A stretch of 64,000 nt of DNA, taken from assembly GCA_937136395.1 (NCBI GenBank), contig CAKZOI010000095.1, positions 1 through 64,000 on the forward strand, written 5' to 3'. Shown in pieces: positions 11,527 through 53,340 of this stretch. Position 1 is the stretch's first letter. Each line of letters starts with the position of its first letter. Source of the stretch: an uncultured Opitutia bacterium (GTDB lineage: Bacteria; Verrucomicrobiota; Verrucomicrobiia; Opitutales; Coraliomargaritaceae). The notes under the pieces were generated by a model. That model saw only the letters and a list, made by a program, of their open reading frames with translations. It had not been told where the DNA came from and searched no databases. The translations under genes and the position numbers were made by a program.

Positions 11527-13290
11527 CTATTCTGTCGCTTCCAGTGCTTCTCGCAGACTGTTCAAGATAATGGGCAGTCGTGCATAGGGATCGTAGTCTT
11601 CACCGCGGTTCGGAAGGGTTTCGATAGGCAAGTAGCCTCGGTAGCCTGACTCTCGAATAATTCCAACCAACTTAGTGACATCAACTGGTTCTATGTCCGT
11701 GCTGGTTCTGACCATCTCTTTAATCTGCCAGTTCACTGCATACGGAGCGACCATGGCAATGTCAGCGTAGGGATCGTCGGTGTGGTAGTGAGCAATATCC
11801 ACCAGCGCAGCACACCAGTCATGCCCGACCTTTTCGAGGAGTTCCAAGTGCTGCTTACCAGTCGTCAGGAAATCACCATGGTTCTGCACCGCAACAATGA
11901 CGCCATGCTGTTTACCGTATTCTGCACATTCGCGTAATGCATCCGCAATCCAAGCGGTGGCTGCCTCACGATCATCGTTTCCAAAAGCCTGCTTCCAGTT
12001 TCTATAGGGGCGCTTTGCCTCAACAAAGACGCGGATCACAGGAGCTCCAATAATCGCAGCGACCTCGATCCAATCCTTCGTCATCTGAATCGACGCGCTT
12101 CGGATCTCTGGATCAATCGCCACAAAGTCATTTCCCACCCCAGTGCCACTAAATTCAAGGCCAAGGTCGAATGCATGACGCTTAAGACGTATCAAATAAT
12201 CACGATCGGGAATTTCCGGATAACCCGGGAAATAGTAACCGGTCGCATCTACTGCGTCGATGCCATGCTCCGCACAAAAATTACACACCTCAAACAAATC
12301 GATATGTTTCTCTGGGTCGTCGCTGCGAAGTAATGGATTAAATGAGAACGCGTTCAACGATATCCGCAAATGTGACCCGCCCACACGCTCAATTGGCTCA
12401 AGCTTAGATTCTGTAGATTCGGAGGCGACACCTGTCATGCTCACTACAGGATGTAAGTTGGGATCCTTGATCAGTGAACGTCCATTTCGTATCGATTTCG
12501 TTAGTGGTTTAGAGTGTCCAAGCATCCAGTCGACGAGTTCAACAGAACTAAATACAGCTACGTTTCCCTGACTATGATTGGCACCGGCGAATTCAGTATG
12601 TTTCACGTTTTGGTTTCCTGCGGCGCGCAGACGCTCGACCATCTGTCTAATGCCTATGGGCCTGTCCCCATCGTCACCACCTACCATGCCCCAGATCGGA
12701 AGCGTTACGAGGCGGTCGACATCTCCAGAGTCTCCAGGAGAAAAACCGGCAGGTGCCGCAGCTGCGAATCGCTCGGGGGACTCGTTAATCCAATCCCATG
12801 TCCCTTTGCCGCCCATACTGTGCCCCATTACATAAACACGCCGAGGATCCACTTCAGGATACTTTTTCAAAAAATAGTCCAACATCCGATTCAATGTATC
12901 TGCATCCCAGCTATCGGCTGAATTCGGCTCAAGCAGTATCAGATTCCTCCCTGCCAGTTCGGCCAAGTGCAGGCCTTTCACCCTAGCGGATCTCTCAAGT
13001 TGCCTTTCAATACTCATCGCCTTGCCGCCACCGCCATGAAGAGAGATCAGTAATGGGATTTTGCCCTCTAGCACCGAGACTGGCTTTGCGATAAAGGCCG
13101 TGCCCTTGATTTCCCCAAGTTCCTGCAATAACTCCTCCGGCCACTCCAGTAGCTCGACATTGACCTTCTCGAATCGATCATTGATCACCGCAAGCGTCTC
13201 ACCAAGCTCGCGCGCTTCTTCGATAGCCCAAGTGGGCAAAATCATGGTGAGCACTAGTAACAGGAAATATGTAATTCGTTTTATCATCAT
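11527..13290 (-). CDS. Exported fusion: alpha/beta-hydrolase esterase plus xylose isomerase-like TIM barrel
   Basis: The protein has 587 residues with a signal peptide (TYFLLLVLTMILPTWA). Residues about 50-260 form a PHB-depolymerase/acetylxylan-esterase-like alpha/beta hydrolase. It shows LISLHGGGGK (oxyanion region), the nucleophile elbow GHSMGGKG, an Asp in GGDDGDRP and a His in AGANHSQG. After a linker, residues about 305-580 form a sugar phosphate isomerase/epimerase (AP endonuclease 2-type) barrel, with HGIDAVDATGYYFPG, VQNHGDF, DIAHYHTDDP and the terminal GYLPIETL. Both domains are usually separate proteins. The fusion may couple ester removal with sugar isomerisation in the periplasm, which is inference. 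It is convergent with the sulfatase 52 bp away. Confidence 0.9.
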   Translation of the reverse strand: MMIKRITYFLLLVLTMILPTWAIEEARELGETLAVINDRFEKVNVELLEWPEELLQELGEIKGTAFIAKPVSVLEGKIPLLISLHGGGGKAMSIERQLERSARVKGLHLAELAGRNLILLEPNSADSWDADTLNRMLDYFLKKYPEVDPRRVYVMGHSMGGKGTWDWINESPERFAAAAPAGFSPGDSGDVDRLVTLPIWGMVGGDDGDRPIGIRQMVERLRAAGNQNVKHTEFAGANHSQGNVAVFSSVELVDWMLGHSKPLTKSIRNGRSLIKDPNLHPVVSMTGVASESTESKLEPIERVGGSHLRISLNAFSFNPLLRSDDPEKHIDLFEVCNFCAEHGIDAVDATGYYFPGYPEIPDRDYLIRLKRHAFDLGLEFSGTGVGNDFVAIDPEIRSASIQMTKDWIEVAAIIGAPVIRVFVEAKRPYRNWKQAFGNDDREAATAWIADALRECAEYGKQHGVIVAVQNHGDFLTTGKQHLELLEKVGHDWCAALVDIAHYHTDDPYADIAMVAPYAVNWQIKEMVRTSTDIEPVDVTKLVGIIRESGYRGYLPIETLPNRGEDYDPYARLPIILNSLREALEATE

Positions 13291-13446
13291 ATTAGCTCTC
13301 TTTTATCACAATTATGATTCCACGTTACCAGTGTTTTCGTCGAACCCTCGCATTCTGATATTAATCGAACGATACAACTCGTGTCCAATACCTTATGTCT
13401 GACTCATATCAATACATTCCAGCTCGCCCAGTGTTGAAGGAAACCA

Positions 13447-13482
13447 ACGCACGCGGCAGCGATGGAACGCTGCCCTCCAGAA
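13447..13482 (-). repeat. R2-family palindromic repeat
   Basis: Read on the minus strand it starts TTCTGGAGGGCAGCG and closes with CGCTGCC, so the core forms a GGCAGCG/CGCTGCC hairpin. The same layout (TGGAGGGC, variable hairpin, GCCGC) recurs at 31711-31793, 36706-36735 and inside purL at about 49424. Hairpin bases change together between copies, as expected for a mobile palindromic repeat. Confidence 0.65.
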
Positions 13483-13664
13483 AACTTTATACCTAATAAA
13501 AATTGGTAGATGGCCTGAGTGTATTCTTGTAAACCGTTAATGGACGTCAATTAACGTTAATCAGACGCTGCGCCAATTTGGCTTTGGATTACAGAATGAG
13601 AATCGGAAAGAAATTAGGCGTAAGCTAATCATAAACAAAAACTTATACACTCATAATTAATGTT

Positions 13665-13746
13665 TATTGCTTCGCCATCTACGGCAGGCCTCCGTCACGC
13701 AAATTAACGGTTCAACTTATTTTTTAGGTTAATGCGAAGGGCCTGC
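13665..13746. other. Stem-loop with possible pseudoknot in a gene-free region
   Basis: GCAGGCC at 13684-13690 is complementary to GGCCTGC at 13740-13746. An upstream CTTCGC near 13671 is complementary to GCGAAG at 13734-13739. The two pairings cross, so they form either a pseudoknot or two alternative structures. An inner, imperfect CGCAaATTAAC/GTTAATgCG stem lies between. Nothing codes here. It sits 38 bp left of the larger structured element at 13785 and could be a separate unit or its extension. Confidence 0.4.
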
Positions 13747-13784
13747 TTAAATGCTACGCTATGAAAATAAATCCAATAGGCACT

Positions 13785-14000
13785 GGAGGGCATGGCTCCT
13801 TAGTTATGTCTCAAAACATCAGACTAGTCTAAACTTCGCCACCAAACAGACCAAAAGTTTACACTTTCGGCTACATGTTTTCGGATTGTAGCCGAATCGG
13901 TAACGATTTGGATAGTTTTGAGACAATGCCGCAGTGTATTCCTTATGACCTGAGAACCGGGAGGCCTAGCAATCACTGCAAGGCAGGAGCCATACCCTCC
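13785..14000. other. Multibranched structured element of about 216 nt (candidate ncRNA or MITE)
   Basis: The ends are 15-nt inverted arms, GGAGGGCATGGCTCC (13785-13799) and GGAGCCATACCCTCC (13986-14000). The one mismatch becomes a G-U pair in a minus-strand transcript. Inside are a GTCTCAAAAC/GTTTTGAGAC stem (13808-13817 with 13915-13924), TAAACTT/AAGTTTA (13830-13836 with 13855-13861) and TTCGGCTACA/TGTAGCCGAA (13866-13875 with 13887-13896). A stem TGCCGCAGTG (13927-13936) pairs with CACTGC plus GGCA (13974-13985). All stems nest without conflict. No plausible gene overlaps. It is either a structured RNA or a short nonautonomous transposon with terminal inverted repeats. No target duplication is visible. 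It matches no RNA family I can recall. Confidence 0.6.
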
Positions 14001-14054
14001 ATCTATAGTCTATACCTAAGCACTTCTTGCTCGGTTTTCGAAGATGAATTCACA

Positions 14055-14091
14055 AAAAAGCGCCCTTCTTTCGAAGGACGCTTTTCGTTTT
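14055..14091 (-). terminator. Intrinsic terminator of the respiratory operon
   Basis: The hairpin has arms AAAAGCGCCCTTC and GAAGGACGCTTTT with a TTTC loop and one mismatch. An A-run on the plus strand becomes the T-run for leftward transcription. It lies 16 bp past the stop of the last cytochrome gene. The second T-run on the right would also let it act on the other strand. Confidence 0.85.
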
Positions 14092-14106
14092 TAAAGTTTC
14101 TAAAGC

Positions 14107-14883
14107 TTAGTGAGCCGCTTCTTCAGCTTGACCGTCTCCAGCCTGTGCGGCATCGGCCTCCCCTTCAGTAGCTTCTTCGGCAACGGGTTCTGGCTCTGGA
14201 ATTGGACCAAGACCTTCTTTCAACTCTGCGGCAGTCCATGGTGTCGAACGGCTAGCATATGCAGCTAAATAAGTATCCACCATAGGAACAGACATTTCCG
14301 AAGCAGCGTTGCCCCACTCTTGGCGAATGTAAGTCATTACGCCGGCAAGGTCTTTGTTACTAAGATTCAAACCACCAGGCCCGAAAGCTGGCATGTTGCC
14401 GTTATAGGTATTTCCCATAACTTCAATCGGACCATTCAGACCATTAATCAAAATACGAGCAAGCACTTCAGGATGCTCAGTGACCCACTCAGACCCAGCA
14501 ATCGGTGGATACACTCCCGGCACACCTGCACCGGATGCTTGGTGACAGACCGCACACTGCTGACTAAAGACCTTTTGACCACGCTCGAATAGAGGAATCT
14601 CTTTGGGCACAGGCTTATCCGCATTCGGATCAAAGTTTGGGCTGTATGCATCCCAACGGAAGCCACCCGAATAGTGCACCAAATACACACCACCCCAAAA
14701 GCAAAGTGCTGCAAAGATGAACATCAATACGATGGGCACCGGTGAGAACCCCTCTTTTGGCTCTTCCTTTTCACGCATCAACTGCGCGTGCACATCTTGC
14801 ATGTTATCATCCTGCATCGCCGCTTGTTCGAGCGATGCTTTATTGTCTGGATGCGGTCCTGAACTGTGTTTCTCTTCGCTCAT
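14107..14883 (-). CDS. Membrane-anchored monoheme cytochrome c (CcoP-like subunit III)
   Basis: The protein has 258 residues. A cytoplasmic N-terminus of about 45 residues precedes one transmembrane helix (about residues 47-68, [20 protein letters not shown]). A single class I cytochrome c domain follows with the heme site CAVCH and a Met ligand in NMPAFG. The tail of about 50 residues is Glu/Ala rich. It overlaps the CcoO stop (shared base at 14883), so it is translationally coupled, and it is the last gene before the terminator. By position it replaces CcoP, but standard CcoP has two heme c domains and only one CxxCH is present. It probably passes electrons to the CcoNO core. Confidence 0.88.
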
Positions 14884-36569: not shown

Positions 36570-36705
36570 ACTAACAATCTGCCCTGTAGCCGAATGCGTA
36601 TGCATTTGGATAAATGCCCTACACGCTTACAGACAAACCAAAGCGTCACCGCTTCGACTACAAAACAGAAACGACCGATCAACCAATCGACACACTTGGA
36701 GTATT

Positions 36706-36735
36706 CGCGGCGATGACAGAGCATCGCCCTCCAGT
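36706..36735 (-). repeat. R2-family repeat near the 5' end of oppC
   Basis: On the minus strand it reads TGGAGGGCGATGCTCTG then TCATCGCCGC, with a GGCGATG/CATCGCC hairpin, the R2 layout. It lies between oppB and the preferred oppC start. If an earlier ATG at 36614 were used it would be translated in frame as part of oppC. Confidence 0.6.
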
Positions 36736-52013: not shown

Positions 52014-52294
52014 ATGCCAAAGCTAACTCCTCACGAAATAGCCGAGAAACTATCATCAGACTATCCTTTCGAAAATCGAAACGAAGCCGACACCTGGCAT
52101 AAATTATCGATACGCTTCTACATGAGGTTCTCGCGTGGAAAAAGGCTCTCGTAAAATGCTAAAAGCATGTAAACCCAGGTTATCTTGATTATTTGCTTAC
52201 GGATAAAGCTAATCGGTCACGATTAGTGATCGAGGCGAAGAAGGAAGGAAAATCTTTTGACCTTCCGAGGCAACAAAAGGGGTCAAACGTTTAA
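52014..52294 (+). pseudogene. Remnant of a restriction-enzyme-like (HSDR_N) gene
   Basis: An ATG at 52014 opens MPKLTPHEIAEKLSSDYPFE and stops after 45 codons. A later frame reads YLDYLLTDKANRSRLVIEAK then KEGKSFDLPRQQ. The D-x-LL...VIEAKKEG pattern is that of the type I restriction HsdR N-terminal nuclease domain (PD-(D/E)XK). The frames are broken and the sequence stops at the left end of the RAYT element, so the gene was probably cut by that insertion. No right-hand part is seen after the element. Confidence 0.55.
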
Positions 52295-52338: not shown

Positions 52339-53256
52339 ATGCCACGGAAGCAACGCATTCAATTCCCAGGAGCGGTTTACCACGTCATTAGTCGTGGGAA
52401 CTATCGAAAAGAACTTTTCCTTTCGGAGAATACAGGCAAGGCCTTTGAACGGGCGCTCTTTGAAACTGTAGAGCGCTGTGGCTGGAAATTGCACGCCTAC
52501 GTGATTATGAGTAATCACTACCATCTGGCTGTTGAGACGCCGGAACCGAATTTGGTCGACGGAATGAAATGGTTGCAGAGCACCTTTGCCACACGCTTCA
52601 ACCGCCTACGCGGGGAGCGCGGGCATGTTTTCCAAGGGCGCTACAAATCGATCCTGATCGGGGAAGATCGCCCCCTACTCGGCTTAGTCGACTACATTCA
52701 TTTAAACCCTGTGAGAGCCGGAATCAGCGCCGTCGAGGACTTGAAGAGCTACGCGCTCTCCAGTTACCCGAAATATTTTAAGCGTTCACCGATGGACGCA
52801 CTGCATCGCGAAGACTTCCTCGGGATTTTGGACCTGCCGGACAGCCTCGCGGGAATGAATCGCTACGCGAAGCACTTGGCGCTTTCCGAAGCACAGGACC
52901 CGAAGCAGAAAGAGGCACTCATGAAGCAGTATTGCCGAGGGTGGTTCATCGGAGCTAAGGAAACGAAGAAGGCCCTCGCTAAGGACCTCGCTAGACAGCA
53001 TCCAGACATTGACTGGGAGGGAGCCGACTTACAGGAGCTGAATGAGTCGAAATGGGAGTTACTGGTAGCGCATGAGTTGAAGCGCGCGGGTATGACAAAG
53101 ACGAACATCGCGAACGAACCCAAAGGCGCCACTTGGAAAATTCAAATCGCTCAGACTCTACGCAAGCAAACCACTGCTAAAAATAGCTGGATCGCACAAC
53201 GCCTCAACATGGGGCATCCGTCCCGCGTCAGTAACCTGATTCAGAATAAGTCCTGA
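52339..53256 (+). CDS. REP-associated tyrosine transposase (RAYT, IS200-like Y1)
   Basis: The protein has 305 residues. The Y1 transposase domain spans about residues 1-150. FPGAVYHVISRGNYRKELF opens the domain, MSNHYHLAVETPEP holds the HUH pair (HYH), and GHVFQGRYKSILI follows. YIHLNPVRAGI is a RAYT hallmark, and the catalytic Tyr is in this part. The C-terminal 150 residues include a helical DNA-binding region (TWKIQIAQTLRKQTTAKNSW). In other bacteria RAYTs are domesticated and act on short REP palindromes. All motifs are intact, so it may be active. Confidence 0.92.
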   Translation: MPRKQRIQFPGAVYHVISRGNYRKELFLSENTGKAFERALFETVERCGWKLHAYVIMSNHYHLAVETPEPNLVDGMKWLQSTFATRFNRLRGERGHVFQGRYKSILIGEDRPLLGLVDYIHLNPVRAGISAVEDLKSYALSSYPKYFKRSPMDALHREDFLGILDLPDSLAGMNRYAKHLALSEAQDPKQKEALMKQYCRGWFIGAKETKKALAKDLARQHPDIDWEGADLQELNESKWELLVAHELKRAGMTKTNIANEPKGATWKIQIAQTLRKQTTAKNSWIAQRLNMGHPSRVSNLIQNKS

Positions 53257-53272
53257 GAATGACATTTATTTT

Positions 53273-53340
53273 AAACGTTTGACCCCTTTTTGTTTCTAAA
53301 CGTTTGACCCCTTTTTGTTTCTACCCCCTTTTTGTTTCAC
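53273..53340. repeat. Tandem copies of a 25-bp RAYT end repeat
   Basis: Two exact 25-bp units begin AAACGTTTGACCCC (53273-53297, 53298-53322). A partial third, ACCCCCTTTTTGTTTC, follows to 53338. The palindrome AAACGTTT heads each full unit. Confidence 0.85.

Follow-up and report, generated by a model that had tools for sequence, protein, structure and literature searches.

A patchwork of palindromic DNA repeats, probably a small mobile-DNA relic, in an intergenic gap of an uncultured Opitutales bacterium

Among the repeat systems described in bacteria, the BIMEs of Escherichia coli are mosaics that combine inverted REPs and conserved spacer motifs. The feature analysed here is likewise a mosaic of inverted REPs, but its sequences differ from those of BIMEs and the palindrome around the REPs is longer. 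REPINs consist of two inverted REPs that fold into one hairpin; they are dispersed extragenically, and RAYTs have been proposed as the enzymes that move them (Bertels and Rainey, 2011, PMC3116915). Our feature shares with REPINs the inverted REP doublet, but the GTAG ends of its REPs (family 1 below) face inward, and at the RAYT loci of genomes G000 and G001 no family-1 REPs were found flanking the gene. Di Nocera et al. (2013, PMC3733652) report that PVC bacteria have GTAG repeats, with a strong presence in Opitutus terrae, and describe GTAG-15 dimers of Anabaena variabilis that sit within long palindromes. A flanking RAYT gene is, according to the same paper, often seen with GTAG repeats and not essential, and the cognate RAYT genes can be lost. 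When likened by description rather than by sequence, the units at our locus resemble these GTAG families in having an unpaired GTAG end on a stem-loop, covarying stems, inverted dimers and an extragenic location. They differ in that the palindrome here is framed further by a second REP-like family. The feature fits a published kind, the GTAG REP dimers (REPIN/BIME), known also inside longer palindromes, so that a class can now be named where the first-pass annotation of this DNA had found no fitting one.

The feature occupies positions 13785–14000 of the window, by which we mean the whole 64,000-nt stretch of DNA analysed. It lies in a gap between two minus-strand genes, encoding a 587-aa AP_endonuc_2-domain protein and a cytochrome c oxidase cbb3-type subunit, whose ends flank the gap at 13290 and 14107. 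No convincing gene was found in 13290–14107, in agreement with the original description of the gap as gene-free. The inverted outer arms, GGAGGGCATGGCTCC (13785–13799) and GGAGGGTATGGCTCC (13986–14000), pair over 15 bp with one mismatch, which is C-A on the plus strand and G-U on the minus strand. Inside the 216 nt we observed the stems TGTCTCAAAAC/GTTTTGAGACA and CGGCTACA/TGTAGCCG, the REP hairpins and GCAGTG/CACTGC. The multibranched fold proposed from the sequence was confirmed, since both strands fold far better than shuffles: the minus strand gave −95.8 kcal/mol compared with −57.4 ± 4.4 kcal/mol for shuffles (z −8.74, 0/200 as good), and the plus strand gave −81.7 kcal/mol (z −6.51, again unmatched by any shuffle). 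Direct reading and folding also bear out the nesting of the inner stems within the 15-bp terminal inverted arms.

The genome of the bacterium itself (3.18 Mb in 106 contigs) was searched with the 216 nt. Apart from the feature, 14 partial matches were obtained, all of them in query positions 78–159, corresponding to the feature centre. Eleven further matches of similar extent (query 76–159) were found in the sister species G001, and the same query gave no match in the other 55 relatives. Searches of the own genome with the outer segments alone revealed no second copy of the left arm with its flank, nor of 13912–14000; the latter query recovered the place itself and otherwise weak matches at the level of chance (E ≥ 0.07). 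Since the matches are confined to the centre and the outer segments have no second copy, the 216-nt unit is single-copy and its centre is repeated. The search for further copies with the same ends, which had been suggested as a check, thus gave a split result, in that the interior is multi-copy and the unit with its 15-bp ends is not. We leave unassigned a 59-nt stretch at 13927–13985, which has an imperfect stem of its own (GCAGTG/CACTGC) and for which no relatives were found.

The feature contains two units of a GTAG-type REP family, which we term family 1. The first, GTAGCCGAAAGTGTAAACTTTTGG (13851–13874, minus strand), was recognised by pattern matches and its covarying stem; the second, GTAGCCGAATCGGTAACGATTTGG (13888–13911, plus strand), by pattern matches, covariation and exact copies in the own genome, G001 and other MAGs. 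The two form an inverted pair with the GTAG ends facing inward. Each family-1 unit is a 24-nt hairpin, GTAG-CCGAAxxx-GTAA-xxxTTTGG, with an 8-bp stem, a 4-nt loop and an unpaired GTAG. The pattern GTAGCCGAAxxxGTAAxxxTTTGG has 29 matches in the own genome compared with 2 for the reversed control. Covariation was assessed in 36 distinct units from the own genome, G001 and other MAGs, with the inner pairs left free by the pattern; the five outer pairs are uninformative because the search pattern fixed them. The three inner stem pairs covary, with 99.7% of cells paired compared with 59% or less in slid controls, and the covariation score was 0.516 compared with 0.089 in shuffles. Family-1 units are mostly extragenic, 19 of 25 being located outside ORFs of at least 300 nt, when 84% of random points fall inside. 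Inverted dimers occur at several places and exact relatives are present in other Verrucomicrobiota and Planctomycetota MAGs. The interior units therefore show the properties that define GTAG-type REPs, namely a stem-loop of 20–40 nt, compensatory changes, an extragenic location and inverted dimers. A literature search with the sequence GTAGCCGAA returned only unrelated work among the matches listed.

Two further occurrences of family 1 were observed. At 36586–36732 in the window, a family-1 pair and a REP of family 2 (described below) share one gap, and G001 also carries the family-1 pair at a comparable location (L037). Y1_Tnp-like genes of a Verrucomicrobiales MAG contain a family-1 REP (L123, 4618–4641; L125, 3945–3968; L114, 3234–3257), which in L123 and L125 was seen within open reading frames.

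The family-1 pair sits inside a palindromic element of about 120–190 nt (about 150–190 nt when complete) with arms GTCTCAAAA/TTTTGAGAC. In the window, the core at 13808–13926 (plus strand) is homologous to this dispersed family, and its left arm TGTCTCAAAAC (13807–13817, plus strand) and right arm GTTTTGAGACA (13915–13925, plus strand) are conserved across the family. A covariance model of eight copies, trained on the window and seven others, detected three strong copies in the own genome and about 20–30 in G001; none were detected in G002. As an independent check, a profile was made from 14 sister-species copies outside the training set and containing no window sequence, and this profile of G001 copies matched window 13808–13926 with an E value of 1.6e-16. 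Complete copies have arms near GGAAACTGTCTCAAAA/TTTTGAGACAGTTTCC, and conservation fades about 20–30 nt beyond the arms. In the window copy, the right hairpin is missing a 24-nt part. Element-free orthologous sites were found for two members of the family other than the window copy. The L130 copy in G001 sits between two conserved genes that are joined in G000 and G002 by a short element-free sequence. The L129 copy in G000 is absent at the matching G001 and G002 sites, where the short spacers are unlike one another. No convincing core arms were found at the RAYT genes of the own and sister genomes.

The outer arms resemble a different repeat type, the GGAG type, which we term family 2. The pattern GGAGGGN(3-6)GCTC has 87 matches in the own genome, 43 in G001 and 66 in G002, compared with 9, 17 and 11, respectively, for the reversed control. 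The complete unit, GGAG-GGxxxxG-CTCYGT-CxxxxCC, has a covarying stem and often occurs as outward pairs. In G001, two intact family-2 pairs bracket a 168-aa Y1_Tnp gene (L108), an association with a RAYT that holds at the level of the family and not for the window copy. No Y1_Tnp match was found in G002. In the window, the left outer arm (13785–13799, plus strand) carries the tag, 5′ stem half and loop start of family 2 (GGAGGGxxxxGCTCC), as judged from the pattern and the family hairpin, and its 3′ stem half is decayed. By pattern, the right outer arm (13986–14000, minus strand) is a second, inverted family-2-like REP head with a similarly decayed 3′ stem half. Tag, 5′ stem half and CTCC are found at both ends, and the match extends over 15 nt from the start of each unit and no further; because the 3′ halves are degenerate, we term the arms family-2-like and do not count them as intact members. 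In the gap that follows the cytochrome c gene, G002 has a plain family-2 pair and G001 has nothing like the 216-nt feature, and neither gap is a clean empty site, since the far neighbours differ.

Other Y1_Tnp loci are organised differently. At 52339–53256 in the window (plus strand), a 305-aa Y1_Tnp (RAYT-like) gene is located between inverted copies of AAAAGGGGTCAAACGTTTAA (near 52274 and at 53269–53302). These flanks are terminal inverted repeats in place of REPs, and a similar layout is seen in G001 (L102). Elsewhere in the own genome, the Y1_Tnp genes around 923–1982 of L023 and around 1359–2072 of L026 are flanked by GTAG-tagged palindromes that are inverted and differ in sequence from those above (GTAGAAGCGACACTCTTGTCGCTT and GTAGGGGCTTCATTTATGAAGTC, respectively), which suggests that the genome harbours additional REP families.

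The inverted ends and the lack of a gene could also indicate a classical MITE of 216 nt, in which the 15-bp arms are the terminal inverted repeats of a DDE-type insertion sequence. The dispersal of core relatives and the two element-free orthologous sites are in keeping with such an element. However, the genome has just one copy of the 216-nt unit with these ends, so that no set of copies shares the ends even though the core family is many-copy, and the relatives share with the window only 13808–13926. No target duplication was identified from the element-free sites, which locate the boundaries only approximately. We therefore regard a classical MITE as improbable. The original proposal had been either an RNA or a short non-autonomous transposon; the second is favoured in a modified form, as the parts are dispersed, in many copies and at non-orthologous sites, but a second copy of the 216 nt and a target-site duplication were not found.

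A dedicated structured RNA, encoded by the 216 nt and transcribed from the minus strand, is in our estimation very unlikely. The strong minus-strand fold speaks for it, as does the observation that the same element strand folds better in 22 of the 27 core-family copies. This bias is not independent evidence, however, because the copies share one consensus. The G-U mismatch that had been taken as a hint of the strand is indeed seen on the minus strand, but carries little weight as evidence of strand, since an asymmetric shared consensus can explain the bias. In an arm-swap test of the 27 copies, own arms gave a mean of −21.3 kcal/mol and swapped arms −21.6 kcal/mol (permutation 0.65). That own arms pair no better than swapped ones argues that the copies descend from a palindromic ancestor and decay separately; it speaks against a maintained RNA fold and against selection acting on how each copy folds. 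A scan of 13600–14150 with the Rfam 15 covariance models gave no match at the gathering score and none overlapping the feature at E ≤ 1. Promoter-like sites are at background, with none just upstream of the feature on the minus strand. Moreover, the outer arms have no second copy, the corresponding gaps behind the cytochrome c gene of G001 and G002 lack the feature, and good folding is inherent to palindromic repeats.

Overall, the feature is a patchwork of palindromic DNA repeats, in which inverted GTAG REPs lie in an GTCTCAAAA/TTTTGAGAC palindrome framed by two inverted, decayed GGAG-type heads. The repeats are dispersed in multiple copies, the hairpins of both REP families covary and two other members of the core family are absent at orthologous sites. 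Since short palindromic repeats of this kind are present in dozens of copies in the bacterium and its relatives, the feature probably represents a small relic of mobile DNA rather than a new RNA gene. In more specific terms, it is very likely a decayed, non-autonomous REP-based mobile-DNA mosaic of nested palindromic repeats in an intergenic gap. A RAYT (Y1/HUH tyrosine transposase) would have recognised the REP hairpins as single-stranded DNA and copied them, and the long palindrome may have spread by the same route or as a MITE-like passenger, the window copy now being a presumed decaying relic. Any present effect, for example on mRNA end structure, transcription attenuation or protein binding, would be secondary. 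It is conceivable, though unlikely, that the REP-bearing palindrome is a distinct, larger non-autonomous element of the Opitutales, with a tyrosine transposase acting on its branched single-stranded fold and the nesting of two REP families forming part of its spread.

A striking fold of a single sequence can come from nested repeats, and the feature provides no evidence of a new RNA class. What the Opitutales gain is a REP-bearing palindromic family together with two REP families, one of which is tied to a RAYT gene.
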